Source of the DNA: Heliopora coerulea | Taxonomy: Eukaryota; Cnidaria; Anthozoa; Scleralcyonacea; Helioporidae | Length of the DNA: 64,000 nt | Reading direction: 5' to 3' | NCBI GenBank assembly: GCA_030142905.1 | Contig: JASJOG010000630.1 | Span: 1 to 64,000 of the forward strand | Part shown: in pieces, positions 11,163 to 44,997 of the stretch | Layout of the letters: the number at the start of each line of letters is the position of its first letter | Numbering within the stretch: position 1 is the first letter of the stretch | The notes under the pieces: model-generated | The model's database searches: none | The model's input: the letters and a program-made list of their open reading frames with translations, nothing else | What the model was told of the DNA's origin: nothing | Made by a program: the position numbers and the translations under genes

Positions 11163-11760
11163 GAGTTTTCCCGGCGAAAGGCAATGTTTTGATTGGTTCA
11201 TTTCACACTGGCGCATGTGGTAGGAGAGCTGCTAAGTGCATCAATTTAGCTATGAAAGAGATGATTACCTACCATGTTTTATTTCTCGTATCTCATTCCC
11301 TATGCCATCAAACGGTGCACGATGGTTCGTGATCTTGTCATTCCTTGGAAATGCCAACCATCCAACGTTGTCCACATCAGCTCCCCAGAGACACGATGCT
11401 TGCTCTCCCGGGACACATCTAACCTGAAACGTAATAGCACAAAACACAGTCACTGCTCTGACCACTTTCATTTCAATTCTTCTTGCTGTTGTGCTGATTG
11501 TTGTTCTTCCCCGAAGGGAAGGGGCCGTACTCGGATGTAGTGCAAGACCGAGACAACCCGTGGCCAGGGCGAAGCAAGCTTCAATCCCATGGCCGAGGTC
11601 CAAAAATCAGTTTAATATATGAGCCAGGCGTTGCCTGGCATATCAGATATTAAGCTGATAAGAACAGAGTTTTATTGATTTCAATGTTTACAAATGATGG
11701 GACCAGTTAACGAACTACGGTAATTACAAAGATATGCTATAAGCGGATACAAGTAACGGT

Positions 11761-11779
11761 GATGCTAGAATTTAGCATC
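11761..11779 (-). other. Post-stop hairpin, family A
   Basis: A 7-bp perfect stem (GATGCTA with TAGCATC, 5-nt loop) begins 4 nt after the stop codon. Families B and C have hairpins at the same place with unrelated sequence. Confidence 0.6.
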
Positions 11780-11783
11780 ATAT

Positions 11784-13193
11784 TTAGGTTTGATATTTAA
11801 GTATATTAAAAGTTTCTAATTTAGGAGATATGTTCAATTTCTTGAAAGCTTCAACATGTAGTGATTTAGTAAGGTCCTCAACTCTCATGGCGAACGATCT
11901 GTATTTATCAGTTTTTTTAAAGAATTTATTTGGAACCGTGGCTTCATTCAGTTCAAATTTAGAGTAGAGACTTGCAGCTTGAATCACTTGTTTCTTTTTG
12001 AGTGAGGTCTCTTTCATAGCCACTTTCACAAAGGAATTAAGTGATTGTTTGTTTAAACCAGAACAATTCAATAAATGATAGTCAACAAGATGAGACGAAA
12101 CGGCAGAATTACATAGTCGGCAGATTCCTTGAATGTTCATGAAGTGAGCTTGAATTCCAGGGTCAAGGTAACCATCACCAACAATCGGTAAAGGATTTGG
12201 AGAGACTAGAAACTTTTTAGGAAAACCTTTAGGCGCAGTCGGAATTTCAACAGATGAATTCGGAGGTGAAGATATATCCACTTTCGTAGTTTTAATTTCG
12301 TCTTGAATAAGCGGAGAATCTTTAGAAACGGAAGAAGGAGCTGAATGAACTGAATTTTCGGAGGAAGTTGATTTGTTGACCTTTGAAATTGACGTTTCAG
12401 AACGATGATTCGGGGTTTTCCCTTGAGAGCATTGAGTATCAGGTTTCTTATTAACAGATTCAGAAGCTTGGGCAATATCAGGCGAAGACTTTTTCTCGTT
12501 ACTAGCAACGTTAATCGAAGAGATCTTTGACAAATTGTTCGACGCTTTATCAGAATTACATTTCGAAGGAACAAAAATGTCATGATGACGATTTAACAGA
12601 TGAGGAGAATCAAAATTAGGATGTGGCGGAGGATTAACCGCTCGGCGCCAATTGAGAGAATCACTATGGGAACGGAGATTTGAATTCAAACTACCAAAAC
12701 CTGAGTCGGATAATTTTTTAACATTTTGAGGCAATGGAGAGTGAAATTCAGACGATTTATTCGTAGAGGATGCAACATTCGAAGTAGTAGGTTTGCAACA
12801 GGATTGGTTGAATTTCAGAGGTAGAATTTGCCATTCGATTTTCGATGACAGTTTGGTTTTGGCGGAAGAAGTTGACCATGACGGTTGGGAAATGTTGTAG
12901 AATTTAATTGCTTGAAGGATGTAATAAGGGACGATATCAATAGACTTCGGAGTATTAGGATCAGTGGAGATAGACCATTCCAATTTGAGCTTTAAATGTT
13001 TTGGAGAAACGGAAATATCCCAAGATATTAGATCAGAAAGTTGGCTGCCTTCAAGGAGAGTTACCAACGGGTATGGCAACGGATAGTACGAACGACCAAC
13101 AAAAGAATCGGTATTAGTTCCATTTGGTTGGCGAGATGGAGTAGGAAGAAGGCCAGGAGACGGAGAAACTTGGATTGAGGAATGAAAAACCAT
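11784..13193 (-). CDS. Unrecognised ~470-aa protein of site-II element A1
   Basis: I do not recognise this protein. The ATG at 13193 (residues MVF) has a good context (A at -3, G at +4) and is the start shared by families A, B and C; it gives 469 residues. An open frame continues 30 codons upstream (hydrophobic, to 13283) but has no ATG in this family. Three conserved parts are seen across families: an N-terminal ~100 residues with a SWDxSVSxK patch; a Ser/Pro/Lys-rich middle with an isolated NWR motif; and a C-terminal ~130 residues with a GFPKKF...GYLDP segment, a zinc-finger-like C-X2-C-X11-H-X3-C, a basic patch and an ending in FNILKY. The middle looks disordered. It has no reverse transcriptase, nuclease or CCHC zinc knuckle. 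By position it may act as an ORF1-like RNA-binding protein or a target-recognition factor; that is inference. Copies A1-A5 look identical, so the frame is intact. Confidence 0.8.
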   Translation of the reverse strand: MVFHSSIQVSPSPGLLPTPSRQPNGTNTDSFVGRSYYPLPYPLVTLLEGSQLSDLISWDISVSPKHLKLKLEWSISTDPNTPKSIDIVPYYILQAIKFYNISQPSWSTSSAKTKLSSKIEWQILPLKFNQSCCKPTTSNVASSTNKSSEFHSPLPQNVKKLSDSGFGSLNSNLRSHSDSLNWRRAVNPPPHPNFDSPHLLNRHHDIFVPSKCNSDKASNNLSKISSINVASNEKKSSPDIAQASESVNKKPDTQCSQGKTPNHRSETSISKVNKSTSSENSVHSAPSSVSKDSPLIQDEIKTTKVDISSPPNSSVEIPTAPKGFPKKFLVSPNPLPIVGDGYLDPGIQAHFMNIQGICRLCNSAVSSHLVDYHLLNCSGLNKQSLNSFVKVAMKETSLKKKQVIQAASLYSKFELNEATVPNKFFKKTDKYRSFAMRVEDLTKSLHVEAFKKLNISPKLETFNILKYQT

Positions 13194-13339
13194 GATGTAT
13201 TGAATAAACCAAAATATCAACAAAATAAGAGCGATGTACTTGAGATCGATGGCGGCTTCTCTTGAAATTATAAACGGCAGCAATTTGACGATAGATAATA
13301 GGTCTAATAAATCTCCCGGGACAATTTAAATACACTCTT

Positions 13340-13384
13340 ATGAAAGAAAGCACAATCACGATCACTTTGAAGAAAATAAGAGTG
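13340..13384 (-). other. Leader hairpin, family A
   Basis: In sense, ACACTCTTAT pairs with ATAAGAGTGT (10 bp) around a loop containing AAAGTGATC. Families B and C keep the stem with compensatory change and the same loop motif. Confidence 0.65.
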
Positions 13385-13387
13385 TAT

Positions 13388-13466
13388 GGCCTAATGACCA
13401 AGACCAAGGCAGCACTGAATTAAGCTGATAAGAACAGATACTACACTTGATCTTAGCCAATAGGCC
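13388..13466 (-). repeat. Inverted repeat: A1 leader versus U2 5' remnant
   Basis: Element bases 13388-13412 are complementary to U2 nt 11-36 (13441-13466): 24 pairs with one mismatch and one bulge, four of them G-U. The distal part of the leader (GCTG) can also pair with U2 CAGC at nt 50-53. A chimeric transcript would fold back on the branch-point recognition region. Confidence 0.85.
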
Positions 13467-13586
13467 GAGAAGCGATACTGAAGTATAAAAAAATAAGTTT
13501 AAAAACGAAAAAAGCCACCAACCTTCTTGTGGTTCGTTTTGGTCAGCGGACGTTGCCGCCGCGTACCCTATTGTTCAGGAAACAAA

Positions 13587-16687: not shown

Positions 16688-18437
16688 GTTTTATTGATTT
16701 CAATGTTTACAAATGATGGGACCAGTTAACGAACTACGGTAATTACAAAGATATGCTATAAGCGGATACAAGTAACGGTGATGCTAGAATTTAGCATCAT
16801 ATTTAGGTTTGATATTTAAGTATATTAAAAGTTTCTAATTTAGGAGATATGTTCAATTTCTTGAAAGCTTCAACATGTAGTGATTTAGTAAGGTCCTCAA
16901 CTCTCATGGCGAACGATCTGTATTTATCAGTTTTTTTAAAGAATTTATTTGGAACCGTGGCTTCATTCAGTTCAAATTTAGAGTAGAGACTTGCAGCTTG
17001 AATCACTTGTTTCTTTTTGAGTGAGGTCTCTTTCATAGCCACTTTCACAAAGGAATTAAGTGATTGTTTGTTTAAACCAGAACAATTCAATAAATGATAG
17101 TCAACAAGATGAGACGAAACGGCAGAATTACATAGTCGGCAGATTCCTTGAATGTTCATGAAGTGAGCTTGAATTCCAGGGTCAAGGTAACCATCACCAA
17201 CAATCGGTAAAGGATTTGGAGAGACTAGAAACTTTTTAGGAAAACCTTTAGGCGCAGTCGGAATTTCAACAGATGAATTCGGAGGTGAAGATATATCCAC
17301 TTTCGTAGTTTTAATTTCGTCTTGAATAAGCGGAGAATCTTTAGAAACGGAAGAAGGAGCTGAATGAACTGAATTTTCGGAGGAAGTTGATTTGTTGACC
17401 TTTGAAATTGACGTTTCAGAACGATGATTCGGGGTTTTCCCTTGAGAGCATTGAGTATCAGGTTTCTTATTAACAGATTCAGAAGCTTGGGCAATATCAG
17501 GCGAAGACTTTTTCTCGTTACTAGCAACGTTAATCGAAGAGATCTTTGACAAATTGTTCGACGCTTTATCAGAATTACATTTCGAAGGAACAAAAATGTC
17601 ATGATGACGATTTAACAGATGAGGAGAATCAAAATTAGGATGTGGCGGAGGATTAACCGCTCGGCGCCAATTGAGAGAATCACTATGGGAACGGAGATTT
17701 GAATTCAAACTACCAAAACCTGAGTCGGATAATTTTTTAACATTTTGAGGCAATGGAGAGTGAAATTCAGACGATTTATTCGTAGAGGATGCAACATTCG
17801 AAGTAGTAGGTTTGCAACAGGATTGGTTGAATTTCAGAGGTAGAATTTGCCATTCGATTTTCGATGACAGTTTGGTTTTGGCGGAAGAAGTTGACCATGA
17901 CGGTTGGGAAATGTTGTAGAATTTAATTGCTTGAAGGATGTAATAAGGGACGATATCAATAGACTTCGGAGTATTAGGATCAGTGGAGATAGACCATTCC
18001 AATTTGAGCTTTAAATGTTTTGGAGAAACGGAAATATCCCAAGATATTAGATCAGAAAGTTGGCTGCCTTCAAGGAGAGTTACCAACGGGTATGGCAACG
18101 GATAGTACGAACGACCAACAAAAGAATCGGTATTAGTTCCATTTGGTTGGCGAGATGGAGTAGGAAGAAGGCCAGGAGACGGAGAAACTTGGATTGAGGA
18201 ATGAAAAACCATGATGTATTGAATAAACCAAAATATCAACAAAATAAGAGCGATGTACTTGAGATCGATGGCGGCTTCTCTTGAAATTATAAACGGCAGC
18301 AATTTGACGATAGATAATAGGTCTAATAAATCTCCCGGGACAATTTAAATACACTCTTATGAAAGAAAGCACAATCACGATCACTTTGAAGAAAATAAGA
18401 GTGTATGGCCTAATGACCAAGACCAAGGCAGCACTGA
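16688..18437 (-). mobile_element. Site-II element A2
   Basis: Copy of A1 with the same ends, length (1750 bp) and 20-bp target duplication. Its flanking spacer has the C allele, unlike that of A1. Confidence 0.85.
16803..18212 (-). CDS. Unrecognised ~470-aa protein of element A2
   Basis: The predicted protein is identical to that of A1 (11784-13193): 469 residues from the MVF start, a Ser/Pro-rich middle, a C-terminal C-X2-C-X11-H-X3-C finger and the FNILKY ending. Identity of all five copies means either very recent spread or homogenisation; the open frame cannot by itself be read as selection. Confidence 0.8.
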   Translation of the reverse strand: MVFHSSIQVSPSPGLLPTPSRQPNGTNTDSFVGRSYYPLPYPLVTLLEGSQLSDLISWDISVSPKHLKLKLEWSISTDPNTPKSIDIVPYYILQAIKFYNISQPSWSTSSAKTKLSSKIEWQILPLKFNQSCCKPTTSNVASSTNKSSEFHSPLPQNVKKLSDSGFGSLNSNLRSHSDSLNWRRAVNPPPHPNFDSPHLLNRHHDIFVPSKCNSDKASNNLSKISSINVASNEKKSSPDIAQASESVNKKPDTQCSQGKTPNHRSETSISKVNKSTSSENSVHSAPSSVSKDSPLIQDEIKTTKVDISSPPNSSVEIPTAPKGFPKKFLVSPNPLPIVGDGYLDPGIQAHFMNIQGICRLCNSAVSSHLVDYHLLNCSGLNKQSLNSFVKVAMKETSLKKKQVIQAASLYSKFELNEATVPNKFFKKTDKYRSFAMRVEDLTKSLHVEAFKKLNISPKLETFNILKYQT

Positions 18438-18605
18438 ATTAAGCTGATAAGAACAGATACTACACTTGATCTTAGCCAATAGGCCGAGAAGCGATACTGA
18501 AGTATAAAAAAATAAGTTTAAAAACGAAAAAAGCCACCAACCTTCTTGTGGTTCGTTTTGGTCAGCGGACGTTGCCGCCGCGTACCCTATTGTTCAGGAA
18601 ACAAA

Positions 18606-20117: not shown

Positions 20118-20725
20118 GAGTTTTCCCGGCGAAAGGCAATGTTTTGATTGGTTCATTTCACACTGCCGCATGTGGTAGGAGAGCTGCTAAGTGCATCAAT
20201 TTAGCTATGAAAGAGATGATTACCTACCATGTTTTATTTCTCGTATCTCATTCCCTATGCCATCAAACGGTGCACGATGGTTCGTGATCTTGTCATTCCT
20301 TGGAAATGCCAACCATCCAACGTTGTCCACATCAGCTCCCCAGAGACACGATGCTTGCTCTCCCGGGACACATCTAACCTGAAACGTAATAGCACAAAAC
20401 ACAGTCACTGCTCTGACCACTTTCATTTCAATTCTTCTTGCTGTTGTGCTGATTGTTGTTCTTCCCCGAAGGGAAGGGGCCGTACTCGGATGTAGTGCAA
20501 GACCGAGACAACCCGTGGCCAGGGCGAAGCAAGCTTCAATCCCATGGCCGAGGTCCAAAAATCAGTTTAATATATGAGCCAGGCGTTGCCTGGCATATCA
20601 GATATTAAGCTGATAAGAACAGAGTTATTAGAATATATTTCTTTTCAAACATCAACATACATGAATAATCTTCAAAGGTGTTACAAAAAGGAATCTATAT
20701 ACATAGATCATAAGAATGATATGAA

Positions 20726-20753
20726 ATATTGAATAACAATAGTTATCCAATAT
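20726..20753 (-). other. Post-stop hairpin, family B
   Basis: Arms ATATTG.ATAAC and GTTAT.CAATAT (12 positions, one G-T wobble) around a 4-nt loop, starting 2 nt after the stop codon. Confidence 0.6.
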
Positions 20754-20755
20754 GT

Positions 20756-22192
20756 TTAAGAATATTTAAGAATATTAAAGTTATCCAAATGTTCAGGTAA
20801 AGCAAGTTTAGCAAAGGCAATCTTAGCAAGTTCTTGGGTAAGTCTCTCAAGTTTCTCAGTAAAATAATTATAGGACTTAGAGTTTTTAAAGAACTTATTC
20901 GGAATAGATTTTTCGTTCATCTCAAACTTAGAGTATTTCTTCGCTGCTTCCACAACTTGCTTCCTCTTGAGTGATGCATTTTTAGAAATATCTTCAACAA
21001 ATTGTTCCGTTAAGCAACGATCAATACCAGGGCAATGAAGTAGATGTAAATCGATCAAATAAGATGAAGTTTTCGAAGAGCAAAGACGGCAAACACCAGA
21101 AATATTCATATAATAGGCTTTGATGTTCGGATCTAGGTAACCATCTTTGGACACTGGCAGAGGATCAGGCGTGGGATAGAATTTTTTAGGAAAACCTTTT
21201 GGTGGAATTGGGATTTCGTAATCTGATACGATATTAACGTTCGCAGAACCAGATGAACTTGAACACGCTGTTGAAAGAGATTCACACGTTTTGCTAGAAT
21301 TTGGCACAGAAGACGATGAGGTAGATTTTGAAGAGGTATTCGGAATATCAAGATCTTTTTCTTGACGAGAATCCTTGGAAGAAATCGAATCAGATGAACA
21401 ATTTGAGGTAAACTTGTCTAGGTAATCATTAACCACCTCAGATGTTGTTGTCAAGGTAGGAACAGAATTAATTATCTCGGGCGAAGTTGAAGCCTTCGGA
21501 ATTGTAGGCAAGGAAATGATTTCATCTTTAGTAGACGAAACAGAAGATTGTTTGTGATCAGAGTACACATCATGTTTAGTTTTCTTCGATGATTTCTTAA
21601 GCGGAGGGCTAAATATCGGCTTCTGAATTGGAGATGATTTTTGGCGCCAATTATCATAGCAACCACCGGTCGAGATGTTACTTTTATAACCAGAATCAAA
21701 TTGAACACCTTTCACAGATCTAAACGGAGTTATAAATGAATCAGAGTAAACCGGAGAACGATATTTCTTTGATGATGTATCATTTATCGAAGTATGAGGC
21801 GAGGAAACTTTAGAAATCGACCATTCGAATCGGGCGGAGACTTTAGACTTTGATGATGAGAGTGACCATGAAGGTCGAGAAAGGTCATATAAGCATAAAG
21901 CTTGAACAAGGTTATTTGGAATCTTTTCAGATAAAGAAAAACCCTCAGGAGAATTCGGGAGACAAGACCAATCAATTTTGACTTTGATGGATTTCTTTGA
22001 TACGGATATATCCCACGATATCAGGTCAAGTAATGAAGAGCCTTCGAGAACAACAATAGCTTCGTACGGAATCGGAAATAATGAAGCACCAACATATTTA
22101 TTCGGACGTAGATTCGGTGTCGGTGAACTTTTAGGAGTAGGAAGAAGACCAGATGAATGCGATGAGATATAGGGGGAATCAGAAAAGACCAT
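20756..22192 (-). CDS. Unrecognised ~478-aa protein of site-II element B
   Basis: Same family as the A and C proteins; function unknown. I take the ATG at 22192 (MVF), in a fair Kozak context and shared with A and C. An upstream in-frame ATG at 22258 would add 22 mainly hydrophobic residues beginning MLREA, which resemble the open frame upstream of A and C. Conserved blocks are the N-terminal LLDLISWDISVSKK region, an NWR motif in the Ser-rich middle, the GFPKKF and GYLDP segments, the finger C-X2-C-X11-H-X3-C with a SSYLIDLHLL core, a Lys/Arg patch, PNKFFK, and the FNILKY ending. Divergence from A across the Ser-rich middle is high while the terminal blocks are kept, which indicates purifying selection on those blocks. 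Confidence 0.8.
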   Translation of the reverse strand: MVFSDSPYISSHSSGLLPTPKSSPTPNLRPNKYVGASLFPIPYEAIVVLEGSSLLDLISWDISVSKKSIKVKIDWSCLPNSPEGFSLSEKIPNNLVQALCLYDLSRPSWSLSSSKSKVSARFEWSISKVSSPHTSINDTSSKKYRSPVYSDSFITPFRSVKGVQFDSGYKSNISTGGCYDNWRQKSSPIQKPIFSPPLKKSSKKTKHDVYSDHKQSSVSSTKDEIISLPTIPKASTSPEIINSVPTLTTTSEVVNDYLDKFTSNCSSDSISSKDSRQEKDLDIPNTSSKSTSSSSVPNSSKTCESLSTACSSSSGSANVNIVSDYEIPIPPKGFPKKFYPTPDPLPVSKDGYLDPNIKAYYMNISGVCRLCSSKTSSYLIDLHLLHCPGIDRCLTEQFVEDISKNASLKRKQVVEAAKKYSKFEMNEKSIPNKFFKNSKSYNYFTEKLERLTQELAKIAFAKLALPEHLDNFNILKYS

Positions 22193-22333
22193 AGTGAACA
22201 AAACCAATAATATCAACCAGAGATGAATACAGTGTAGAATAATGGCTTCTCTCAGCATAAGCAACCAACAGGTTAAATTTCTTTCGATGAATATAATCCA
22301 GTAGAGGCACCGAACAAAATTTTGAATACACTC

Positions 22334-22382
22334 TTGCAATAATAAAGAACAAAAGGATCACTTTGGGAATAACAAGAGTGTA
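22334..22382 (-). other. Leader hairpin, family B
   Basis: In sense, TACACTCTTG pairs with CAAGAGTGTA, with AAAGTGATC in the loop. Where A has a T-A/A-T pair near the top, B has G-C. Confidence 0.65.
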
Positions 22383-22383
22383 A

Positions 22384-22462
22384 GGCCTAATGACTAAGAC
22401 CAAGGTAGATCAGCATTAAGCTGATAAGAACAGATACTACACTTGATCTTAGCCAATAGGCC
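22384..22462 (-). repeat. Inverted repeat: B leader versus U2 5' remnant
   Basis: The first 31 nt of the element are complementary to upstream U2: GCTGAT pairs with U2 nt 48-53 across a 5-nt loop, and the next 25 nt pair with U2 nt 11-36 (22 Watson-Crick plus 2 G-U, one mismatch, one bulge). U2 nt 37-47 stay as an internal loop. Confidence 0.88.
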
Positions 22463-22582
22463 GAGAAGCGATACTGAAGTATAAAAAAATAAGTTTAAAA
22501 ACGAAAAAAGCCACCAACCTTCTTGTGGTTCGTTTTGGTCAGCGGACGTTGCCGCCGCGTACCCTATTGTTCAGGAAACAAA

Positions 22583-23517: not shown

Positions 23518-25267
23518 GTTTTATTGATTTCAATGTTTACAAATGATGGGACCAGTTAACGAACTACGGTAATTACAAAGATATGCTATAAGCGGATACA
23601 AGTAACGGTGATGCTAGAATTTAGCATCATATTTAGGTTTGATATTTAAGTATATTAAAAGTTTCTAATTTAGGAGATATGTTCAATTTCTTGAAAGCTT
23701 CAACATGTAGTGATTTAGTAAGGTCCTCAACTCTCATGGCGAACGATCTGTATTTATCAGTTTTTTTAAAGAATTTATTTGGAACCGTGGCTTCATTCAG
23801 TTCAAATTTAGAGTAGAGACTTGCAGCTTGAATCACTTGTTTCTTTTTGAGTGAGGTCTCTTTCATAGCCACTTTCACAAAGGAATTAAGTGATTGTTTG
23901 TTTAAACCAGAACAATTCAATAAATGATAGTCAACAAGATGAGACGAAACGGCAGAATTACATAGTCGGCAGATTCCTTGAATGTTCATGAAGTGAGCTT
24001 GAATTCCAGGGTCAAGGTAACCATCACCAACAATCGGTAAAGGATTTGGAGAGACTAGAAACTTTTTAGGAAAACCTTTAGGCGCAGTCGGAATTTCAAC
24101 AGATGAATTCGGAGGTGAAGATATATCCACTTTCGTAGTTTTAATTTCGTCTTGAATAAGCGGAGAATCTTTAGAAACGGAAGAAGGAGCTGAATGAACT
24201 GAATTTTCGGAGGAAGTTGATTTGTTGACCTTTGAAATTGACGTTTCAGAACGATGATTCGGGGTTTTCCCTTGAGAGCATTGAGTATCAGGTTTCTTAT
24301 TAACAGATTCAGAAGCTTGGGCAATATCAGGCGAAGACTTTTTCTCGTTACTAGCAACGTTAATCGAAGAGATCTTTGACAAATTGTTCGACGCTTTATC
24401 AGAATTACATTTCGAAGGAACAAAAATGTCATGATGACGATTTAACAGATGAGGAGAATCAAAATTAGGATGTGGCGGAGGATTAACCGCTCGGCGCCAA
24501 TTGAGAGAATCACTATGGGAACGGAGATTTGAATTCAAACTACCAAAACCTGAGTCGGATAATTTTTTAACATTTTGAGGCAATGGAGAGTGAAATTCAG
24601 ACGATTTATTCGTAGAGGATGCAACATTCGAAGTAGTAGGTTTGCAACAGGATTGGTTGAATTTCAGAGGTAGAATTTGCCATTCGATTTTCGATGACAG
24701 TTTGGTTTTGGCGGAAGAAGTTGACCATGACGGTTGGGAAATGTTGTAGAATTTAATTGCTTGAAGGATGTAATAAGGGACGATATCAATAGACTTCGGA
24801 GTATTAGGATCAGTGGAGATAGACCATTCCAATTTGAGCTTTAAATGTTTTGGAGAAACGGAAATATCCCAAGATATTAGATCAGAAAGTTGGCTGCCTT
24901 CAAGGAGAGTTACCAACGGGTATGGCAACGGATAGTACGAACGACCAACAAAAGAATCGGTATTAGTTCCATTTGGTTGGCGAGATGGAGTAGGAAGAAG
25001 GCCAGGAGACGGAGAAACTTGGATTGAGGAATGAAAAACCATGATGTATTGAATAAACCAAAATATCAACAAAATAAGAGCGATGTACTTGAGATCGATG
25101 GCGGCTTCTCTTGAAATTATAAACGGCAGCAATTTGACGATAGATAATAGGTCTAATAAATCTCCCGGGACAATTTAAATACACTCTTATGAAAGAAAGC
25201 ACAATCACGATCACTTTGAAGAAAATAAGAGTGTATGGCCTAATGACCAAGACCAAGGCAGCACTGA
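23518..25267 (-). mobile_element. Site-II element A3
   Basis: Copy of A1 with the same 20-bp duplication. The preceding variant 5S links it to A2, so the A2 and A3 segments probably arose by duplication of one unit. Confidence 0.85.
23633..25042 (-). CDS. Unrecognised ~470-aa protein of element A3
   Basis: Predicted protein identical to that of A1: 469 residues from the MVF start with the C-terminal C-X2-C-X11-H-X3-C finger; function unknown. Confidence 0.8.
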   Translation of the reverse strand: MVFHSSIQVSPSPGLLPTPSRQPNGTNTDSFVGRSYYPLPYPLVTLLEGSQLSDLISWDISVSPKHLKLKLEWSISTDPNTPKSIDIVPYYILQAIKFYNISQPSWSTSSAKTKLSSKIEWQILPLKFNQSCCKPTTSNVASSTNKSSEFHSPLPQNVKKLSDSGFGSLNSNLRSHSDSLNWRRAVNPPPHPNFDSPHLLNRHHDIFVPSKCNSDKASNNLSKISSINVASNEKKSSPDIAQASESVNKKPDTQCSQGKTPNHRSETSISKVNKSTSSENSVHSAPSSVSKDSPLIQDEIKTTKVDISSPPNSSVEIPTAPKGFPKKFLVSPNPLPIVGDGYLDPGIQAHFMNIQGICRLCNSAVSSHLVDYHLLNCSGLNKQSLNSFVKVAMKETSLKKKQVIQAASLYSKFELNEATVPNKFFKKTDKYRSFAMRVEDLTKSLHVEAFKKLNISPKLETFNILKYQT

Positions 25268-25435
25268 ATTAAGCTGATAAGAACAGATACTACACTTGAT
25301 CTTAGCCAATAGGCCGAGAAGCGATACTGAAGTATAAAAAAATAAGTTTAAAAACGAAAAAAGCCACCAACCTTCTTGTGGTTCGTTTTGGTCAGCGGAC
25401 GTTGCCGCCGCGTACCCTATTGTTCAGGAAACAAA

Positions 25436-26370: not shown

Positions 26371-28120
26371 GTTTTATTGATTTCAATGTTTACAAATGAT
26401 GGGACCAGTTAACGAACTACGGTAATTACAAAGATATGCTATAAGCGGATACAAGTAACGGTGATGCTAGAATTTAGCATCATATTTAGGTTTGATATTT
26501 AAGTATATTAAAAGTTTCTAATTTAGGAGATATGTTCAATTTCTTGAAAGCTTCAACATGTAGTGATTTAGTAAGGTCCTCAACTCTCATGGCGAACGAT
26601 CTGTATTTATCAGTTTTTTTAAAGAATTTATTTGGAACCGTGGCTTCATTCAGTTCAAATTTAGAGTAGAGACTTGCAGCTTGAATCACTTGTTTCTTTT
26701 TGAGTGAGGTCTCTTTCATAGCCACTTTCACAAAGGAATTAAGTGATTGTTTGTTTAAACCAGAACAATTCAATAAATGATAGTCAACAAGATGAGACGA
26801 AACGGCAGAATTACATAGTCGGCAGATTCCTTGAATGTTCATGAAGTGAGCTTGAATTCCAGGGTCAAGGTAACCATCACCAACAATCGGTAAAGGATTT
26901 GGAGAGACTAGAAACTTTTTAGGAAAACCTTTAGGCGCAGTCGGAATTTCAACAGATGAATTCGGAGGTGAAGATATATCCACTTTCGTAGTTTTAATTT
27001 CGTCTTGAATAAGCGGAGAATCTTTAGAAACGGAAGAAGGAGCTGAATGAACTGAATTTTCGGAGGAAGTTGATTTGTTGACCTTTGAAATTGACGTTTC
27101 AGAACGATGATTCGGGGTTTTCCCTTGAGAGCATTGAGTATCAGGTTTCTTATTAACAGATTCAGAAGCTTGGGCAATATCAGGCGAAGACTTTTTCTCG
27201 TTACTAGCAACGTTAATCGAAGAGATCTTTGACAAATTGTTCGACGCTTTATCAGAATTACATTTCGAAGGAACAAAAATGTCATGATGACGATTTAACA
27301 GATGAGGAGAATCAAAATTAGGATGTGGCGGAGGATTAACCGCTCGGCGCCAATTGAGAGAATCACTATGGGAACGGAGATTTGAATTCAAACTACCAAA
27401 ACCTGAGTCGGATAATTTTTTAACATTTTGAGGCAATGGAGAGTGAAATTCAGACGATTTATTCGTAGAGGATGCAACATTCGAAGTAGTAGGTTTGCAA
27501 CAGGATTGGTTGAATTTCAGAGGTAGAATTTGCCATTCGATTTTCGATGACAGTTTGGTTTTGGCGGAAGAAGTTGACCATGACGGTTGGGAAATGTTGT
27601 AGAATTTAATTGCTTGAAGGATGTAATAAGGGACGATATCAATAGACTTCGGAGTATTAGGATCAGTGGAGATAGACCATTCCAATTTGAGCTTTAAATG
27701 TTTTGGAGAAACGGAAATATCCCAAGATATTAGATCAGAAAGTTGGCTGCCTTCAAGGAGAGTTACCAACGGGTATGGCAACGGATAGTACGAACGACCA
27801 ACAAAAGAATCGGTATTAGTTCCATTTGGTTGGCGAGATGGAGTAGGAAGAAGGCCAGGAGACGGAGAAACTTGGATTGAGGAATGAAAAACCATGATGT
27901 ATTGAATAAACCAAAATATCAACAAAATAAGAGCGATGTACTTGAGATCGATGGCGGCTTCTCTTGAAATTATAAACGGCAGCAATTTGACGATAGATAA
28001 TAGGTCTAATAAATCTCCCGGGACAATTTAAATACACTCTTATGAAAGAAAGCACAATCACGATCACTTTGAAGAAAATAAGAGTGTATGGCCTAATGAC
28101 CAAGACCAAGGCAGCACTGA
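26371..28120 (-). mobile_element. Site-II element A4
   Basis: Copy of A1. A3, A4 and A5 follow one another with a constant 2853-bp period, i.e. the element-bearing unit itself has become a tandem repeat. Confidence 0.85.
26486..27895 (-). CDS. Unrecognised ~470-aa protein of element A4
   Basis: Predicted protein identical to that of A1 (469 residues from the MVF start); function unknown. Confidence 0.8.
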   Translation of the reverse strand: MVFHSSIQVSPSPGLLPTPSRQPNGTNTDSFVGRSYYPLPYPLVTLLEGSQLSDLISWDISVSPKHLKLKLEWSISTDPNTPKSIDIVPYYILQAIKFYNISQPSWSTSSAKTKLSSKIEWQILPLKFNQSCCKPTTSNVASSTNKSSEFHSPLPQNVKKLSDSGFGSLNSNLRSHSDSLNWRRAVNPPPHPNFDSPHLLNRHHDIFVPSKCNSDKASNNLSKISSINVASNEKKSSPDIAQASESVNKKPDTQCSQGKTPNHRSETSISKVNKSTSSENSVHSAPSSVSKDSPLIQDEIKTTKVDISSPPNSSVEIPTAPKGFPKKFLVSPNPLPIVGDGYLDPGIQAHFMNIQGICRLCNSAVSSHLVDYHLLNCSGLNKQSLNSFVKVAMKETSLKKKQVIQAASLYSKFELNEATVPNKFFKKTDKYRSFAMRVEDLTKSLHVEAFKKLNISPKLETFNILKYQT

Positions 28121-28288
28121 ATTAAGCTGATAAGAACAGATACTACACTTGATCTTAGCCAATAGGCCGAGAAGCGATACTGAAGTATAAAAAAATAAGT
28201 TTAAAAACGAAAAAAGCCACCAACCTTCTTGTGGTTCGTTTTGGTCAGCGGACGTTGCCGCCGCGTACCCTATTGTTCAGGAAACAAA

Positions 28289-29223: not shown

Positions 29224-30973
29224 GTTTTATTGATTTCAATGTTTACAAATGATGGGACCAGTTAACGAACTACGGTAATTACAAAGATATGCTATAAGCG
29301 GATACAAGTAACGGTGATGCTAGAATTTAGCATCATATTTAGGTTTGATATTTAAGTATATTAAAAGTTTCTAATTTAGGAGATATGTTCAATTTCTTGA
29401 AAGCTTCAACATGTAGTGATTTAGTAAGGTCCTCAACTCTCATGGCGAACGATCTGTATTTATCAGTTTTTTTAAAGAATTTATTTGGAACCGTGGCTTC
29501 ATTCAGTTCAAATTTAGAGTAGAGACTTGCAGCTTGAATCACTTGTTTCTTTTTGAGTGAGGTCTCTTTCATAGCCACTTTCACAAAGGAATTAAGTGAT
29601 TGTTTGTTTAAACCAGAACAATTCAATAAATGATAGTCAACAAGATGAGACGAAACGGCAGAATTACATAGTCGGCAGATTCCTTGAATGTTCATGAAGT
29701 GAGCTTGAATTCCAGGGTCAAGGTAACCATCACCAACAATCGGTAAAGGATTTGGAGAGACTAGAAACTTTTTAGGAAAACCTTTAGGCGCAGTCGGAAT
29801 TTCAACAGATGAATTCGGAGGTGAAGATATATCCACTTTCGTAGTTTTAATTTCGTCTTGAATAAGCGGAGAATCTTTAGAAACGGAAGAAGGAGCTGAA
29901 TGAACTGAATTTTCGGAGGAAGTTGATTTGTTGACCTTTGAAATTGACGTTTCAGAACGATGATTCGGGGTTTTCCCTTGAGAGCATTGAGTATCAGGTT
30001 TCTTATTAACAGATTCAGAAGCTTGGGCAATATCAGGCGAAGACTTTTTCTCGTTACTAGCAACGTTAATCGAAGAGATCTTTGACAAATTGTTCGACGC
30101 TTTATCAGAATTACATTTCGAAGGAACAAAAATGTCATGATGACGATTTAACAGATGAGGAGAATCAAAATTAGGATGTGGCGGAGGATTAACCGCTCGG
30201 CGCCAATTGAGAGAATCACTATGGGAACGGAGATTTGAATTCAAACTACCAAAACCTGAGTCGGATAATTTTTTAACATTTTGAGGCAATGGAGAGTGAA
30301 ATTCAGACGATTTATTCGTAGAGGATGCAACATTCGAAGTAGTAGGTTTGCAACAGGATTGGTTGAATTTCAGAGGTAGAATTTGCCATTCGATTTTCGA
30401 TGACAGTTTGGTTTTGGCGGAAGAAGTTGACCATGACGGTTGGGAAATGTTGTAGAATTTAATTGCTTGAAGGATGTAATAAGGGACGATATCAATAGAC
30501 TTCGGAGTATTAGGATCAGTGGAGATAGACCATTCCAATTTGAGCTTTAAATGTTTTGGAGAAACGGAAATATCCCAAGATATTAGATCAGAAAGTTGGC
30601 TGCCTTCAAGGAGAGTTACCAACGGGTATGGCAACGGATAGTACGAACGACCAACAAAAGAATCGGTATTAGTTCCATTTGGTTGGCGAGATGGAGTAGG
30701 AAGAAGGCCAGGAGACGGAGAAACTTGGATTGAGGAATGAAAAACCATGATGTATTGAATAAACCAAAATATCAACAAAATAAGAGCGATGTACTTGAGA
30801 TCGATGGCGGCTTCTCTTGAAATTATAAACGGCAGCAATTTGACGATAGATAATAGGTCTAATAAATCTCCCGGGACAATTTAAATACACTCTTATGAAA
30901 GAAAGCACAATCACGATCACTTTGAAGAAAATAAGAGTGTATGGCCTAATGACCAAGACCAAGGCAGCACTGA
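29224..30973 (-). mobile_element. Site-II element A5
   Basis: Copy of A1, third member of the A3-A5 tandem run. Confidence 0.85.
29339..30748 (-). CDS. Unrecognised ~470-aa protein of element A5
   Basis: Predicted protein identical to that of A1 (469 residues from the MVF start); function unknown. Confidence 0.8.
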   Translation of the reverse strand: MVFHSSIQVSPSPGLLPTPSRQPNGTNTDSFVGRSYYPLPYPLVTLLEGSQLSDLISWDISVSPKHLKLKLEWSISTDPNTPKSIDIVPYYILQAIKFYNISQPSWSTSSAKTKLSSKIEWQILPLKFNQSCCKPTTSNVASSTNKSSEFHSPLPQNVKKLSDSGFGSLNSNLRSHSDSLNWRRAVNPPPHPNFDSPHLLNRHHDIFVPSKCNSDKASNNLSKISSINVASNEKKSSPDIAQASESVNKKPDTQCSQGKTPNHRSETSISKVNKSTSSENSVHSAPSSVSKDSPLIQDEIKTTKVDISSPPNSSVEIPTAPKGFPKKFLVSPNPLPIVGDGYLDPGIQAHFMNIQGICRLCNSAVSSHLVDYHLLNCSGLNKQSLNSFVKVAMKETSLKKKQVIQAASLYSKFELNEATVPNKFFKKTDKYRSFAMRVEDLTKSLHVEAFKKLNISPKLETFNILKYQT

Positions 30974-31141
30974 ATTAAGCTGATAAGAACAGATACTACA
31001 CTTGATCTTAGCCAATAGGCCGAGAAGCGATACTGAAGTATAAAAAAATAAGTTTAAAAACGAAAAAAGCCACCAACCTTCTTGTGGTTCGTTTTGGTCA
31101 GCGGACGTTGCCGCCGCGTACCCTATTGTTCAGGAAACAAA

Positions 31142-32653: not shown

Positions 32654-33261
32654 GAGTTTTCCCGGCGAAAGGCAATGTTTTGATTGGTTCATTTCACACT
32701 GCCGCATGTGGTAGGAGAGCTGCTAAGTGCATCAATTTAGCTATGAAAGAGATGATTACCTACCATGTTTTATTTCTCGTATCTCATTCCCTATGCCATC
32801 AAACGGTGCACGATGGTTCGTGATCTTGTCATTCCTTGGAAATGCCAACCATCCAACGTTGTCCACATCAGCTCCCCAGAGACACGATGCTTGCTCTCCC
32901 GGGACACATCTAACCTGAAACGTAATAGCACAAAACACAGTCACTGCTCTGACCACTTTCATTTCAATTCTTCTTGCTGTTGTGCTGATTGTTGTTCTTC
33001 CCCGAAGGGAAGGGGCCGTACTCGGATGTAGTGCAAGACCGAGACAACCCGTGGCCAGGGCGAAGCAAGCTTCAATCCCATGGCCGAGGTCCAAAAATCA
33101 GTTTAATATATGAGCCAGGCGTTGCCTGGCATATCAGATATTAAGCTGATAAGAACAGATACTACACTTGATCTTGTTTTGAATTTCTCCCCGACAGCTG
33201 TGAGCGCCCGACGGTGCAATGGGCCTCTGGAGCTGTGTGCAGCGGGGGATAATCCACGGAG

Positions 33262-33280
33262 GTAGCATATCGCTGGCTAC
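33262..33280 (-). other. 3' UTR hairpin, Keno-like 1
   Basis: Arms GTAGC (33262-33266) and GCTAC (33276-33280) enclose a loop that is almost unchanged in all site-I coding elements (sense loop AGCGATAT). The arms are GTACC/GGTAC in Keno-like 2 and GTATC/GATAC in the half elements, so the pairing covaries. Confidence 0.8.
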
Positions 33281-33486
33281 GCAGTTACAGGGCTCGCGAA
33301 ACCCTCTCCACGCCGGAAACGACAAGGTGGTAGGACGGTCGGCTACTCAGTGCGTAGTATCTCGTCGCCGTTTCACCGACGGACCGTGAGGTGGAGAATG
33401 AAGGTGACTGGCGGTGAAACGTGGCCTTGGTCCGCAGACTTCCAAGCAAATAATAAGCATGTAAAGGCGAGAAAGCGCTCAGGACG

Positions 33487-33602
33487 TCAAGTACACCGGT
33501 TAAGGAGACCCTCGGTACTGGGCTCTCCCTCGCAAATAATAAAACGTAAAAGGGGAGAGCACTTGGGGCGTCAAGTACACCGGTTAAGGAGACCCTCGGC
33601 AC
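33487..33602 (-). repeat. Tandem repeat in Keno-like 1 3' UTR
   Basis: A ~33-bp segment (CGTCAAGTACACCGG...) occurs at about 33487-33520 and again 82 bp later at 33569-33602. The same duplication is in Keno-like 3 (about 57758 and 57834). Confidence 0.75.
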
Positions 33603-33698
33603 CAAGCACCCCCTCCGCGAGAAAACTTAAACAAGGACCCGGGGATAAAACCCCTAGATGGATTAATTAGTGTTCTTACCTTTTTCGTGTACCTGACC

Positions 33699-36600
33699 TT
33701 AAGAATGCACCTCAGCATGGAATGAAAGAGACCCATCCGGCTGCAAAGATCCTAGGACACCCCCAGCTAGCCATTCCTGCTCGAAGGTGGTGGCGAGACA
33801 GTGGCGCTGTTGCACTCGCAAGAGGAATCGAAGAGATGACTTAATCCTCTTCAGCGAGATTTGGGGTTCCGGCTGAAGGCCATCAAAACGATGAGAGTTT
33901 CGGGCGATCCAAATCTGGTGGCGGATGATGCCAAGTAGGGCGATGAGGCCGGCTGGGATGTGCGCGGTGGATGGGAATGCCCACAAGATATCCGAGGCTG
34001 TTGGGCGTGGCACCGTTAACCTGGCCCGACGGAGGAGGATGGTGAACCAAGCCAGGATGGGCTGCGCAAAAGGACAGTCGACAAACAGGTGCACGAGAGT
34101 TTCGGGTGCCCCACAGTGACACGCAGGGTCCACTGCCATTCCAAAGTGGAGGAGTCGGTCCGCAGTTGGTAGAATGCAATGGGCTATCAGCCAAGACGTG
34201 TCAAGTGCCGGTCTTAAGTGGCGGAGCAAGTTCAAATTTTGCCACACTTTCGGCCAGTGGATAGGGCCAAGTCCTAGTTCGCGAACCTTGGCGATGCAGC
34301 GGTGTGGTGTAGAGTTAAGGCGGCCTAAGATGGCGTAAACATTCTTGGCGGTGATTTCAGCCACTGGCAGCGGGTCAGCATTGGGCCTTGGCACGATGAA
34401 GGCGCCGAAGGCTTGGGTGCCACCGACAGCATACCACGCTGTGAGTACTGCGCCATAGAAGGGTGGCAGACGGCGGAGTGTGGCTGCGCTGACCTGAGGT
34501 AGGCCGAAGACTCGATTAACTGGTTCCGCAAGGAAAGCCCTTCGAAGATAATAATGGAAGAAACTCTGCCAACCACGGTATTCACCGGAAAGAAAGCGCT
34601 TCACCCAAATAATGTGAAGAGACGACAGCTTGCGAGTCACTTCTACAACCCCTAAGCCTCCATGGTCAAGGGGCTGCGTCACCGAAGACCTGCTGAGCCA
34701 TTCCCTCTTTTTACCCCAGACAAAAGGAAACACAAGTTTATTAATTTCATGAATTATATTAGTGGGGATTAGTCTGATGGAGCCTAAGTACCAGAATGTG
34801 CTTAGGCCCAGAGAGTTAGCAATTAGTGCCCGGCCCCTAAAGGACAGCTTACGGTGCGCCCAAGACTGAAAGACCTTCTCCAGCTTTTTGAGGTGGGGCC
34901 CCCAGTCCTCGCCTCCCTCGTTTGAGAGGCGGCTTCCAAGGACCTCGATATGGCTGGAGGAAACCCGAAAGTCCACTGGGAAAGAGGTGCGAGATCTCCA
35001 TGGGCCCAAGACGAGGGCTTTACATTTGGTAATGTTAAGCCGAGCCCCCGATCCTTTTTCGTACCTCTCGAACAACCGGACCAAAGCGAGAATCGAAGCG
35101 TCCGAGGTCACCAGTGCGGACGTGTCGTCGGCATATTGCGAGATCTTGTGTCGCACTCCCCCAGCAGGGAGAGGGAACCCGTCAATGGCGGGGTCTGCGC
35201 GGATGGCACAGGCCAACGACTCTGCGACCAGGACGTACAAGAGCGGCGAAAGAGGACAACCTTGCCTAACCCCCCGGCGAACGGGAAACAGCTCCGAAAC
35301 GAAGCCGTTCACGATCACCGCCGAAAACACCTCACCGTACAACAGGGCCACCCAGCGGCGAAAAGAGGGGCCAAATCCCATCTTGACCAGAACCTTCTGC
35401 ATGTAGGTCCACTCTACACGGTCGAAGGCTTTTTCCTGATCAAGGGAGAGCACAGCAGCGGGTAATGCCTGAGAGTTGGCATAATCTACGACGTCGTGGA
35501 GAAGACGTACGTTCTCCCCCACGCACCGGCCGGGAATGCCGCACGATTGATCCGGCGACACCACGGACGATATAACCAGGAGGAGGCGATTCGCTAGCGC
35601 CTTGGCCGCGATCTTGTAATCCGCACACAGGAGGGTGATTGGACGCCAATTCGCGGTTTCAAGAGGGTCCCCCCTCTTGAACAAGAGCGTTATCGTACCC
35701 GAGCGTTGGGATTTGGACATTTTTCCAGAACGGTAGCACGAGTTGAATACGTTGACTAAGTCTGGGCCCAACAACCCCCAGAACCGAACATAAAATTCGG
35801 CGGGAAGGCCATCTACCCCCGGCGACTTATTGGAAGCCATCTGTTTGAGTGCCCTTTCACACTCTGCTTCCGTGAGGTCTCCCTCACACAACTCGGTCTC
35901 GGCAGGGGACAACTTACGTTCAAGACGCTCTAGGAAGGGGTGTTGTTCTCCCTCGTCTAGGTGTTCTGACGAGAACAGCTTGAAGTAGTAATCCCGCCAT
36001 ACGCCAATCATGTCCTTAGTGGAGGTAGCAAGCGTGCCGTCAGGGCGTTTAACGCCACTGATTAAGCGCTGCTGCCCCCGGACCTTCTCTTGGCGCAGGA
36101 AATAGGCCGTCGACGACTCCCCGTCTTCCGCCCACCGCGTGGCTGCACGCAACTGCGCCCCCTTGGCTTCCGTGAGAAGCTCGGAGGCTAGCTCTGCTCT
36201 CACTTCCTCCAGCAGACCGGGGAGCTGCTCACCGTTATCAATTCGCCTTTGGACATGTTCGACGGTAGCGTTCAACGATTTGATTTTGCGTCGCTGCTGT
36301 TGAGATTTCTCCCGCGAGAAACGACGGATCAACCTTTTAATCCGGACTTTGCCGGCATCCCACCATGATGAGAGAGAAGAAAAACGATTCCGCTCACGAC
36401 GCCAATCCACCCAAAATCCTGCGATTTCGTTGCAGAAGGCCTCATCCTTGAGGTGAGAGGTGTTGAACTTCCATAATCCTTTGCCCCTATCAACCCCAGA
36501 TGGAAGGTTGATGTCCAGATACACATAGGAGTGATCTGATCGAAAGAAGGGAAAGATCCCCACTGACGAGACGAGACCCAGGTATCGCTGTGGTAACCAG

Positions 36601-41976: not shown

Positions 41977-42008
41977 CGCAAAGGACGTTTACAGACACCT
42001 CTTGTCAC

Positions 42009-42568: not shown

Positions 42569-43165
42569 GAGTTTTCCCGGCGAAAGGCAATGTTTTGATT
42601 GGTTCATTTCACACTGCCGCATGTGGTAGGAGAGCTGCTAAGTGCATCAATTTAGCTATGAAAGAGATGATTACCTACCATGTTTTATTTCTCGTATCTC
42701 ATTCCCTATGCCATCAAACGGTGCACGATGGTTCGTGATCTTGTCATTCCTTGGAAATGCCAACCATCCAACGTTGTCCACATCAGCTCCCCAGAGACAC
42801 GATGCTTGCTCTCCCGGGACACATCTAACCTGAAACGTAATAGCACAAAACACAGTCACTGCTCTGACCACTTTCATTTCAATTCTTCTTGCTGTTGTGC
42901 TGATTGTTGTTCTTCCCCGAAGGGAAGGGGCCGTACTCGGATGTAGTGCAAGACCGAGACAACCCGTGGCCAGGGCGAAGCAAGCTTCAATCCCATGGCC
43001 GAGGTCCAAAAACAGTTTAATATATGAGCCAGGCGTTGCCTGGCATATCAGATATTAAGCTGATAAGAACAGATTGATTATTTATTCAACATAAACAAAA
43101 ATGATGGGTCTGGTTTTCTATCCCAGAATATTTGACAAGATGTATAGAAGTTTAAGATATAGTTA

Positions 43166-43192
43166 ATACCGAGTGAATATTTCACTCAGTAT
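43166..43192 (-). other. Stop-codon hairpin, family C
   Basis: Arms ATAC.GAGTGAA and TTCACTC.GTAT around a 3-nt loop. The TGA stop of the ORF lies in the 5' arm. Confidence 0.6.
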
Positions 43193-44606
43193 ATTTTAAG
43201 ATATTAAAATTTTCATACATTTCAGGAATGTTCAAGATACGGAATGCAGATTTAGTAAGTTTTTGGATAATGTTTTCAAGTTCGGATGAGAAGAATTTAA
43301 ATTTATCAATGTTCTTAAAATATTTATTTGGTACAGTCTTTTCGCTAAGTTCAAATTTGCAAAACTGTATAGCAGCCTCCACCACTTTTTTGCGCTTGAG
43401 TTTGGTTTTCTTCATCACTTCTTGTACAAAAGAATCGAGAGGCTGACGATCTAATCCGGAACATTGTAAAAGGTGAAGGTCAATGAGGTAAGATGATACT
43501 TTGGTGTTACAAAGACGGCATTTTCCTGGTAAATTCATGTAGCAAGCTTTTGTTTCAGGTTCCAGAAAGCCATCATTCATTACTGGAAGAGGATCAGGAT
43601 TAGGATAAAAGCTTTTTGGGAAATCAGGCGGTGGAACAGGGAAATCATCCGAAGAGTTTGATTCTTCTTCATTAATCATTAACTCGGCTTCTGTAGATTT
43701 TGGTTGATAATTTTCATTTGAAGAATCAGAAGGAATCGGAAATGTTTTGGAAACAGTTGGTTGAGAGTTCATAGGAATGTCATTCACTTTAGAGCCAACA
43801 TCAGGCGAAGAAATCGAAGAAGGTTTTGAGACAGTTGAACTTGGAGTAACCTTTAGAGTATCAAATTTCACAGTTGTCAAGTTCAGCTTTGAATTAATTA
43901 TCTCAGATTCAGAAGAAACGCTGGGATCTTTAGTAGGTAAAGGACGAAAAACATTCGGAGATGATTTATCTGGATTAACAAACACATCATGTTTAGAATA
44001 CTTTGAAGAGGAGCCAAAATTCGGTTGAAAAATCGGAGAACACTTTTGGCGCCAATTTTGCGAGTTCGGCCCATAGCAACCTACGGGCTGTTCTTTACTT
44101 TTATATCCAGAATCAAGAAATTCACGATTTTCAGCTTGAGACGCAGATTTAGGTGTTTGAGGAATAACCGGAGGAGACATCTGCTTGATTGATGACGAAT
44201 TTATCGAAGATTTGGCAGATACAGGTTTAGAAATGGGCCATTCAATTCGAATAGATACTTTAGACGACGAAGACGATATCGACCACGAAGGATTAGCCAG
44301 GTCATGTAAACAAAGTGAACGGATAAGATTAGGAGGAAGCTTTTCGTTCAATGAACAACCAGAGAAGGATTTTGTATCGCAAGACCAATCCATTTTGATT
44401 TTCAAAGATTTAGTTGAGACAGATAAGTCCCAGGATACAAGTTCTAAGAGTGAAGAACCTTCGAGTAGTAGCACGGCTTGAAACGGAAGAGGAAATAGAG
44501 ACGAACCAACGTATTTTTCGGGATGCAGGTTAGGAGTTGGTTGACTATCAGGATTCGGAAGAAGGCCAGACGAATAATCTTTCATGAAATGCTGTTTGAA
44601 AACCAT
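43182..44606 (-). CDS. Unrecognised ~474-aa protein of site-II element C
   Basis: Member of the same unknown family as A and B. The ATG at 44606 (MVF) has an excellent Kozak context (GTCACCATGG); an upstream in-frame ATG at 44675 in poor context would add MSREVAIL plus a hydrophobic run. Conserved blocks: SGLLPNP, YVGSSLFPLPF, LLELVSWDLSVS, NWRQKCSPIFQP, a PPDFPKSF...GFLEP segment, the finger C-X2-C-X11-H-X3-C with SSYLIDLHLL, KLKRKKVVEAA, PNKYFK and FNILKY. The central part is Ser-rich and variable. It could be an RNA- or DNA-binding partner of an enzyme encoded elsewhere; no enzymatic motif is visible. Confidence 0.8.
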   Translation of the reverse strand: MVFKQHFMKDYSSGLLPNPDSQPTPNLHPEKYVGSSLFPLPFQAVLLLEGSSLLELVSWDLSVSTKSLKIKMDWSCDTKSFSGCSLNEKLPPNLIRSLCLHDLANPSWSISSSSSKVSIRIEWPISKPVSAKSSINSSSIKQMSPPVIPQTPKSASQAENREFLDSGYKSKEQPVGCYGPNSQNWRQKCSPIFQPNFGSSSKYSKHDVFVNPDKSSPNVFRPLPTKDPSVSSESEIINSKLNLTTVKFDTLKVTPSSTVSKPSSISSPDVGSKVNDIPMNSQPTVSKTFPIPSDSSNENYQPKSTEAELMINEEESNSSDDFPVPPPDFPKSFYPNPDPLPVMNDGFLEPETKACYMNLPGKCRLCNTKVSSYLIDLHLLQCSGLDRQPLDSFVQEVMKKTKLKRKKVVEAAIQFCKFELSEKTVPNKYFKNIDKFKFFSSELENIIQKLTKSAFRILNIPEMYENFNILKYTE

Positions 44607-44748
44607 GGTGACCCGTAAGACGACCAATATGAACCAAAACGAAACGAAGTGTAAGATGGCGACTTCTCTGGACATAAACCAAGCCAATGGGCAAATTTCT
44701 AACGAAGAAAGGTAAACGAAACAAGCTCCAGAGGACAATTTGGATTCA

Positions 44749-44792
44749 CTCTTGTGAAAGAAAACGTAATATAGATCACTTTGACAAACAAG
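44749..44792 (-). other. Leader hairpin, family C
   Basis: In sense, CACTCTTGT pairs with ACAAGAGTG (9 bp), again with AAAGTGATC in the loop. Confidence 0.65.
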
Positions 44793-44798
44793 AGTGTT

Positions 44799-44877
44799 GA
44801 CCTAATGACTAAGACCAAGGTAGATCAGCATTAAGCTGATAAGAACAGATACTACACTTGATCTTAGCCAATAGGCC
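44799..44877 (-). repeat. Inverted repeat: C leader versus U2 5' remnant
   Basis: Same arrangement as family B. The only difference in the paired region relative to B changes a G-C to a G-U pair with U2 G12. Confidence 0.87.
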
Positions 44878-44997
44878 GAGAAGCGATACTGAAGTATAAA
44901 AAAATAAGTTTAAAAACGAAAAAAGCCACCAACCTTCTTGTGGTTCGTTTTGGTCAGCGGACGTTGCCGCCGCGTACCCTATTGTTCAGGAAACAAA

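Follow-up and report, generated by a model that had tools for sequence, protein, structure and literature searches.

An antisense copy of target sequence at the 5′ end of U2-specific non-LTR elements in Heliopora coerulea

Little is understood about the 5′ ends of site-specific non-LTR elements, and the systems closest to the one described here are the U2-specific families Utopia and Keno, together with R2. Utopia resembles the elements that we find after nt 57/58 of U2 (site II, below) in its U2 3′ flank, which starts at nt 39, and probably in its RLE-type protein with zinc fingers; the reptile Utopia elements likewise have a 20-bp duplication (PMC4640811). Keno, an APE-type U2 element, has the same 3′ flank in U2 as site II but carries an APE endonuclease, none of which was seen among the site II elements read here (PMC4640811). 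A scan for Exo_endo_phos (APE) gave no match in two site II reverse transcriptase proteins, those of Utopia1 and L049. In R2, described as having a 5′ co-transcript ribozyme, the 5′ end of the element pairs with target-gene sequence in the co-transcript, as it would here (PMC3774820). The SIDEs of R2 are likewise non-autonomous elements at the site of their autonomous partner, with whose 5′ module and 3′ end they are equipped (PMC3414825).

The window analysed, a stretch of 64,000 nucleotides (contig JASJOG010000630.1, positions 1 to 64,000, of assembly GCA_030142905.1; genome 430 Mb), consists of 5S-U2-U1 units repeated in tandem on the minus strand, its snRNA genes marking it as eukaryotic. 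Its interrupted U2 genes have two insertion places, and every insert read shares the orientation of U2. Site I follows U2 nt 22 and has a 3′ flank from nt 23, whereas Keno and Utopia are described with a flank from nt 39; in the long elements at site I, two ORFs carry APE endonuclease, reverse transcriptase and zf-RVT. At site II the insert follows nt 57/58 and U2 resumes at nt 39, giving a target duplication of nt 39-57/58 (19-20 bp). Two types of U2 gene (C446, C591) form separate array blocks, the second being marked by A16C, A64G, G137A and C170A; within nt 11-57 the types differ solely at nt 16, which is A or C. Site I elements occupy 33176-39209, 40271-42029, 45949-47651, 49796-56293 and 57440-63508 of the window, the long two-ORF APE elements measuring 6.0-6.6 kb and the single-ORF elements 1.6-1.85 kb, and a (GGGC)15 tandem repeat lies between a U1 gene and a U2 remnant (57010-57070).

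Three site II families, A, B and C, are each about 1.75-1.8 kb long, with one ORF of about 500 aa that in none of them reaches the Pfam cut-off. The family B element (1792 bp; 20624..22415, minus strand; one ORF, open frame of 533 aa) is preceded by a remnant of U2 nt 1-57 (22416..22472, minus strand) that matches intact U2 at 100% and is followed by a remnant of nt 39-192 (20470..20623, minus strand), which begins with the target duplication. Family A (1751 bp; 11669..13419, minus strand) follows a U2 1-57 remnant at 13420..13476 (minus strand) and has further copies at 16688-18438, 23518-25268, 26371-28121 and 29224-30974, all DNA-identical to the first, the five amounting to one distinct DNA sequence. 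Family C (1756 bp; 43075..44830, minus strand) follows a U2 1-57 remnant at 44831..44887 (minus strand). The ORFs of this family of proteins lie at 11784-13283, 20756-22339 and 43182-44738 and share a conserved C-terminal CxxC...H...C finger with helices. The predicted fold has a mean pLDDT of 52, with no PDB match at E<=0.001 and no Pfam relative; residues 361-499 reach pLDDT values of mostly 82-93, with a dip at 441-460. Public data contain 14 homologues, whose identity to family D2 reaches 92%.

The start of these site II elements is an antisense copy of U2 nt 11-36/43. The leader of family B (element nt 1-33; 22383..22415, minus strand) pairs with U2 11-36 and 48-53, that of family A (13387..13419, minus strand) pairs with U2 11-43, and that of family C lies at 44798..44830 (minus strand). 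The complementarity had been noticed in an earlier sequence-only reading of the window, which placed it correctly: U2 nt 11 falls at 22462, and nt 32 of the family B leader at 22384. RNAfold returns the fold proposed there for B and C, in which 6 bp close a 5-nt loop across the junction and 24 further pairs form with U2 11-36; family A keeps the U2 11-36 pairing, as had been claimed, and extends the helix to nt 43, and the leader of family G can pair up to nt 40. One bulge and one U.U mismatch interrupt the pairing of leader nt 8-33 with U2 36-11. This mismatch, at U2 nt 17 in families A, B and C, had escaped the earlier reading, as had a second conserved leader block, AAAGTGATC, complementary to U2 nt 1-7 (AAGTGAT at 22357..22363, minus strand, with one G.U pair), of which AGTGAT is common to the autonomous class described below.

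Downstream, a second hairpin (hairpin II, ACACTCTT...AAGAGTGT; 22327..22382, minus strand) has 11 bp in B, shows an A-T/G-C exchange between families and retains 7 bp in G; it is absent from the minimum-energy fold of L036 itself. RNAalifold also proposed an outer stem between U2 4-10 and a GAGAAGY block that is invariant in 16/16 leaders of the ORF family (GAGAAGC at 22245..22251, minus strand), a candidate that we rejected: shuffled U2 gives equally long runs (maximum P=0.63), with P=0.043 for the total excess. Both hairpin II and GAGAAGY belong to class 1, as defined below, and are absent from class 2 leaders. A self-cleaving ribozyme of HDV type with U2 sequence in P1 would follow a logic known from R2 with its 28S sequence (PMC3774820), but a 7-bp P1 is much shorter than the helix here. 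Scans with Rfam models, which may miss diverged R2-type folds, matched no ribozyme in the family B leader (up to E=10), in five class 2 leaders (up to E=5) or in the leaders of Utopia1, the 2-kb element and one site I element, and we find such a ribozyme barely credible.

A core-pattern search of the genome, blind by design to junctions without the core, found 33 junctions, compared with 6 matches for the reversed-pattern control. All 33 were read and yield 21 distinct leaders: the ORF family (class 1) accounts for 28 junctions with 16 distinct leaders, and class 2 for five junctions, each with its own leader. A search with the ORF A protein gave 39 matches, all but one (on C263) on contigs whose U2 junctions were read. 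In the fetched arrays (C591 1-74000, C735 and C446 5000-174999) both junctions were detected for 16 site II copies, of which 14 have the antisense leader; the two copies without it are a 5.65-kb Utopia (Utopia1) and a 2.03-kb ORF element (the 2-kb element).

The strength of the pairing separates these groups. Scored against the A16 form of U2 1-57, duplex energies fall 5.3-8.7 s.d. below dinucleotide shuffles in 16/16 distinct class 1 leaders, unlike those of Utopia1 (z -0.2) and the 2-kb element (z -1.7); all five class 2 leaders give z of -3.0 to -7.3 against mononucleotide shuffles. The consensus fold has an energy of -43.8 kcal/mol with U2 and -3.9 kcal/mol for the leader alone in class 1, and of -36.9 and -4.3 kcal/mol in class 2. 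Across 12 aligned copies 95.8% of 287 cells are paired, versus 14-50% when the partner is slid by 1-3 columns; a shuffle control on these copies was uninformative, with 500/500 shuffles reaching every measure, because the U2 side hardly varies. When the full U2 1-57 is given to every leader, the mean probability in silico that U2 11-36 is paired with the leader is 0.83-0.92 in 16/16 class 1 leaders with A16 and 0.72-0.88 with the C16 type, compared with 0.35 for Utopia1 and 0.17 for the 2-kb element.

The prediction that a chimeric RNA would cover the branch-point element holds in silico, this element being 0.01-0.33 unpaired with a class 1 leader and 0.70 unpaired in U2 1-57 alone. The U6-pairing region is paired as well, which would suit a leader that hides the U2 5′ domain of chimeric transcripts from the spliceosomal or snRNP machinery. 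This masking, suggested in the sequence-only reading, is less likely because two elements with an identical insertion point, Utopia1 and the 2-kb element, lack the antisense leader, although every copy read of either lies downstream of a site I insertion; as a general reason for the leader we regard it as distinctly unlikely.

Site I presents a different picture. The proposal that its leaders represent the same antisense phenomenon was dropped, the signal being weak (duplex z -2.6 to +1.8); only a short YAAGAGG pairing and an association with U2 nt 16 look real. Genome-wide, the site I U2 remnant has C16 with YAAGAGG-type leaders in 46 of 50 places and A16 with CAATTGG/AAATAGG leaders in 6/6, and C16 is still found in 6 of 7 YAAGAGG copies in A16 arrays, in counts where the copies are not independent and the target type is assigned by array position (window examples at 47620-47640 and 41997-42018). 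Because the association holds even in A16 arrays, U2 nt 16-22 seem to be carried along with the site I element. Short and long site I elements share a leader motif, GGAYGCATGCTT, followed by a small hairpin and ATAACAC (for example in the 56200 region of the window).

The site II leader is old. Six ORF-bearing families give 15 pairs with amino-acid identities of 35-63% and fourfold-site identities of 29-57%, the latter at most 44% in 13 of the 15; over the same pairs the leader core is 71-100% identical and the later leader stretch 37-88%, and the core has 1.08 changes per column, the remaining leader 2.46. Every leader has the exact antisense base at 14-18 of 21 core positions. Since that base is present in at least one leader at every one of the 21 positions, the ancestral leader was probably a near-exact inverted copy of U2, made by fold-back. 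The sequence-only reading had named a recent fold-back copy in one ancestor as the finding that would undo it. A fold-back in one ancestor is indeed very likely, but it was not recent, with fourfold sites near saturation and a constrained core; the comparisons confirm what appears to be an ancient fold-back whose core still matches U2.

The changes within the leader also bear on its use. Against nulls that are rough (parsimony on leader trees, with class 1 leaders supplying the background spectrum, a single tree assembled manually from both classes, no count of deletions, and gaps at nt 11 for some class 2 letters), pairing is kept among the 16 leaders by 16/23 changes that start from a paired state (null 0.30) and by 16/18 transitions (null 0.63, P=0.015). 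Among the 21 leaders, pairing is kept by 27/43 changes (null 0.31) and 27/30 transitions (null 0.63, P=0.0009) over nt 11-36, and by 24/34 inferred changes (null 0.28, P=3e-7) and 24/27 transitions (null 0.58, P=0.0006) over nt 11-31. Columns tell the same story more modestly: transitions are seen in 8 of 10 columns where a transition keeps pairing and in 3 of 10 where it breaks it (Fisher 0.035). These patterns support leader changes that have favoured pairing with U2 over a long time.

The earlier reading was right that the three differences between A, B and C preserve pairing (U34-A to U-G, U22-A to U-G and G12-C to G-U). The outcome that it had named first as refuting it, further site II leaders that change at the cost of pairing, is partly borne out among the 21 leaders, several of which break pairs: at nt 27 (U in L034, L035 and L041), nt 24 (C in L035), nt 21 (A in L041, U in L048), nt 11 (A in L048), nt 16 (C in L045), nt 14 (U in L043), nt 17 (U or C) and nt 33/34. 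The G and L045 leaders lack one base opposite U2 nt 24, and L035, L041 and L048 pair at 18/21 positions. The covariation check suggested in that reading found two-sided change in 0 of 24 pairs; covariation of this kind cannot be shown, because within nt 11-57 only nt 16 of U2 varies, and site II leaders keep U opposite nt 16 on A16 and C16 genes alike, except for L045 with C. Were the leader an inert relic of one fold-back event, its origin would be the same likely one, to which the survival of the antisense base at all core positions points; the near saturation elsewhere, the slower core, the pairing-biased changes and the retention of the leader in two otherwise unlike classes, and in many families with open ORFs, make this a remote explanation.

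The second of these classes includes a putative source of enzyme. An element of about 4.8 kb begins at L044, a class 2 junction; its body, L049, codes for 1371 aa and, judged by its sequence, is probably an autonomous Utopia-type element, of a putative ZF-RT-RLE kind. Its reverse transcriptase matches RVT_1 at E=1.4e-32, its best solved relatives are R2 proteins, it is 47% identical over 963 aa to the protein of Utopia1 (5.65 kb, C446), and its insertion in U2 has a 3′ flank from nt 39; C2H2 matches lie below the cut-off, CCHC and RPD..IDV motifs are seen by eye, and no RLE model matches. The L050 and L051 proteins, in broken frames, are 78-85% and 57-66% identical to that of L049, these three being the bodies read of the five in class 2 (L045 and L046 account for the other two). 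L049 and its two relatives bear the same antisense leader as the ORF-only elements.

The two classes meet only at their ends. In BLASTN (E<=0.01), eight class 1 families match the three class 2 bodies with their leaders at the two ends only: at the start over the first 26-53 nt in 7/8 (not G; element nt 1-33/34, and to 53 in E), at the 3′ tail in 6/8 (not B and F), and at both ends in 5/8. By eye, the L049 tail, ...CGTTAACTGGACCCATCAA...AATAAAAC|TCTGTTC, is that of the ORF family (for example E, ...CGTTAACTGGTCCCATCAA...) in 7/8 families (not B), the eight being those of the 16 class 1 leaders that were read as full elements. No interior BLASTN match of the sort that internal deletion of the partner would predict links the eight families to the three class 2 bodies, and the ORF profile is unrelated to the Utopia1 and L049 proteins (hhalign probability 0.2 and 0.4%). 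Outside the core, AGTGAT, complementary to U2 1-6, is the one informative 6-mer common to both classes (13/16 and 4/5), accompanied by the AT-rich ATATTT; beyond leader and 3′ tail nothing else in common was detectable. Utopia1 and the 2-kb element, without an antisense leader, share a different tail. At C446 119189-124839 (Utopia1, in L019) and 69828-71861 (the 2-kb element, in L014), these two, through the tail that they alone share, resemble a further pair of autonomous and non-autonomous partners.

Because the leader follows tail class and reverse transcriptase lineage rather than site, it appears to behave as a terminal cis-acting signal of one U2-targeting lineage, for which R2 and its SIDEs offer a precedent (PMC3414825). 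These comparisons show that an ancestor of one U2-targeting non-LTR lineage evidently gained a 5′ inverted U2 copy, from about nt 43 (perhaps 53) to nt 11, and that both the autonomous Utopia-type and the ORF-only elements have kept it as a terminal module. Because enzyme-coding and enzyme-less elements share only start and tail, the backward copy is probably a working part of transposition.

The account that we favour, tentatively, is a 5′ domain at the RNA level, built jointly by U2 remnant and leader and serving the lineage's own cycle. The leader module would be a cis-acting RNA signal in retrotransposition: transcription would start at the U2 promoter and proceed across the remnant into the element, and in the resulting chimeric RNA leader nt 1-33 would pair with U2 11-43 and AGUGAU with U2 1-6, so that remnant and leader would fold together as a single 5′ domain. 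Such a domain may mark the RNA 5′ end for the lineage's own protein and prevent the U2 part from folding as U2, a role that may be likened to R2's 28S-containing 5′ ribozyme and 5′ protein-binding RNA. The antisense copy may have arisen at the cleaved top strand, if its 3′ end (nt 57) folded back on itself and was lengthened with upstream U2 sequence as template. Against this account, L035, L041 and L048 break pairs, the column-level test is modest, the outer stems alone are not significant, and 9/21 leaders have no full cis partner in copies read today. These nine, which include 5/5 of class 2, were read only in copies without U2 nt 1-22 directly upstream, a site I or tandem element occupying that place.

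The main rival holds that the leader pairs with target DNA during integration. It accommodates the nine leaders without cis U2 1-22, as an intact target always has U2 1-57 whatever the donor context; the module also tracks reverse transcriptase lineage and tail rather than site, and in B and C a distance of 2-3 nt separates the pairing edge (nt 36) from the nick. The wobbles rG.dT and rU.dG are tolerable in RNA:DNA. Such pairing would fit the branched intermediate of RLE elements, R2 in vitro having a branched 4-way junction as a good substrate for second-strand cleavage (PMC6895275). However, A-type and G-type leaders pair beyond the nick, to 43 and 40, and another Utopia uses the same site without a leader, and we consider this rival unlikely. 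A built-in guide that hybridises with the U2 top strand beside the first nick seems quite improbable; if true, RNA copied from the target would help to select the site or set the branched intermediate, for autonomous element and parasites alike. The same complementarity, present even without a full cis partner, would allow pairing in trans with host U2 snRNA, for localisation or interference. In B and C the 6-bp helix that closes a 5-nt loop across the junction is meaningful chiefly for pairing in cis, and U2 5′ sequences are occupied in snRNPs; we judge trans pairing highly improbable.

Returning to the jointly built 5′ domain and its described relatives, we found no report of a target-antisense leader in the literature searched, mostly at the level of titles and the starts of abstracts. 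The main text of the Utopia paper is without the words antisense, inverted, hairpin or ribozyme, whereas here the element start is antisense to U2 (PMC4640811). We rate as new what appears to be a target-antisense 5′ module in a U2-specific RLE lineage of known kind and its partners. The leader is a defined sequence with which to ask how co-transcribed target sequence is used when the 5′ junction is formed, and whether pairing between RNA and target is open to elements of this kind. Where R2 has a short HDV P1 stem, the elements described here have an antisense copy of 25-33 bp, with no ribozyme found in the leaders scanned (PMC3774820). The interior of the ORF-only elements sets them apart from the R2 SIDEs: its conserved ORF encodes about 500 aa that show no relation to the protein of the partner (PMC3414825).
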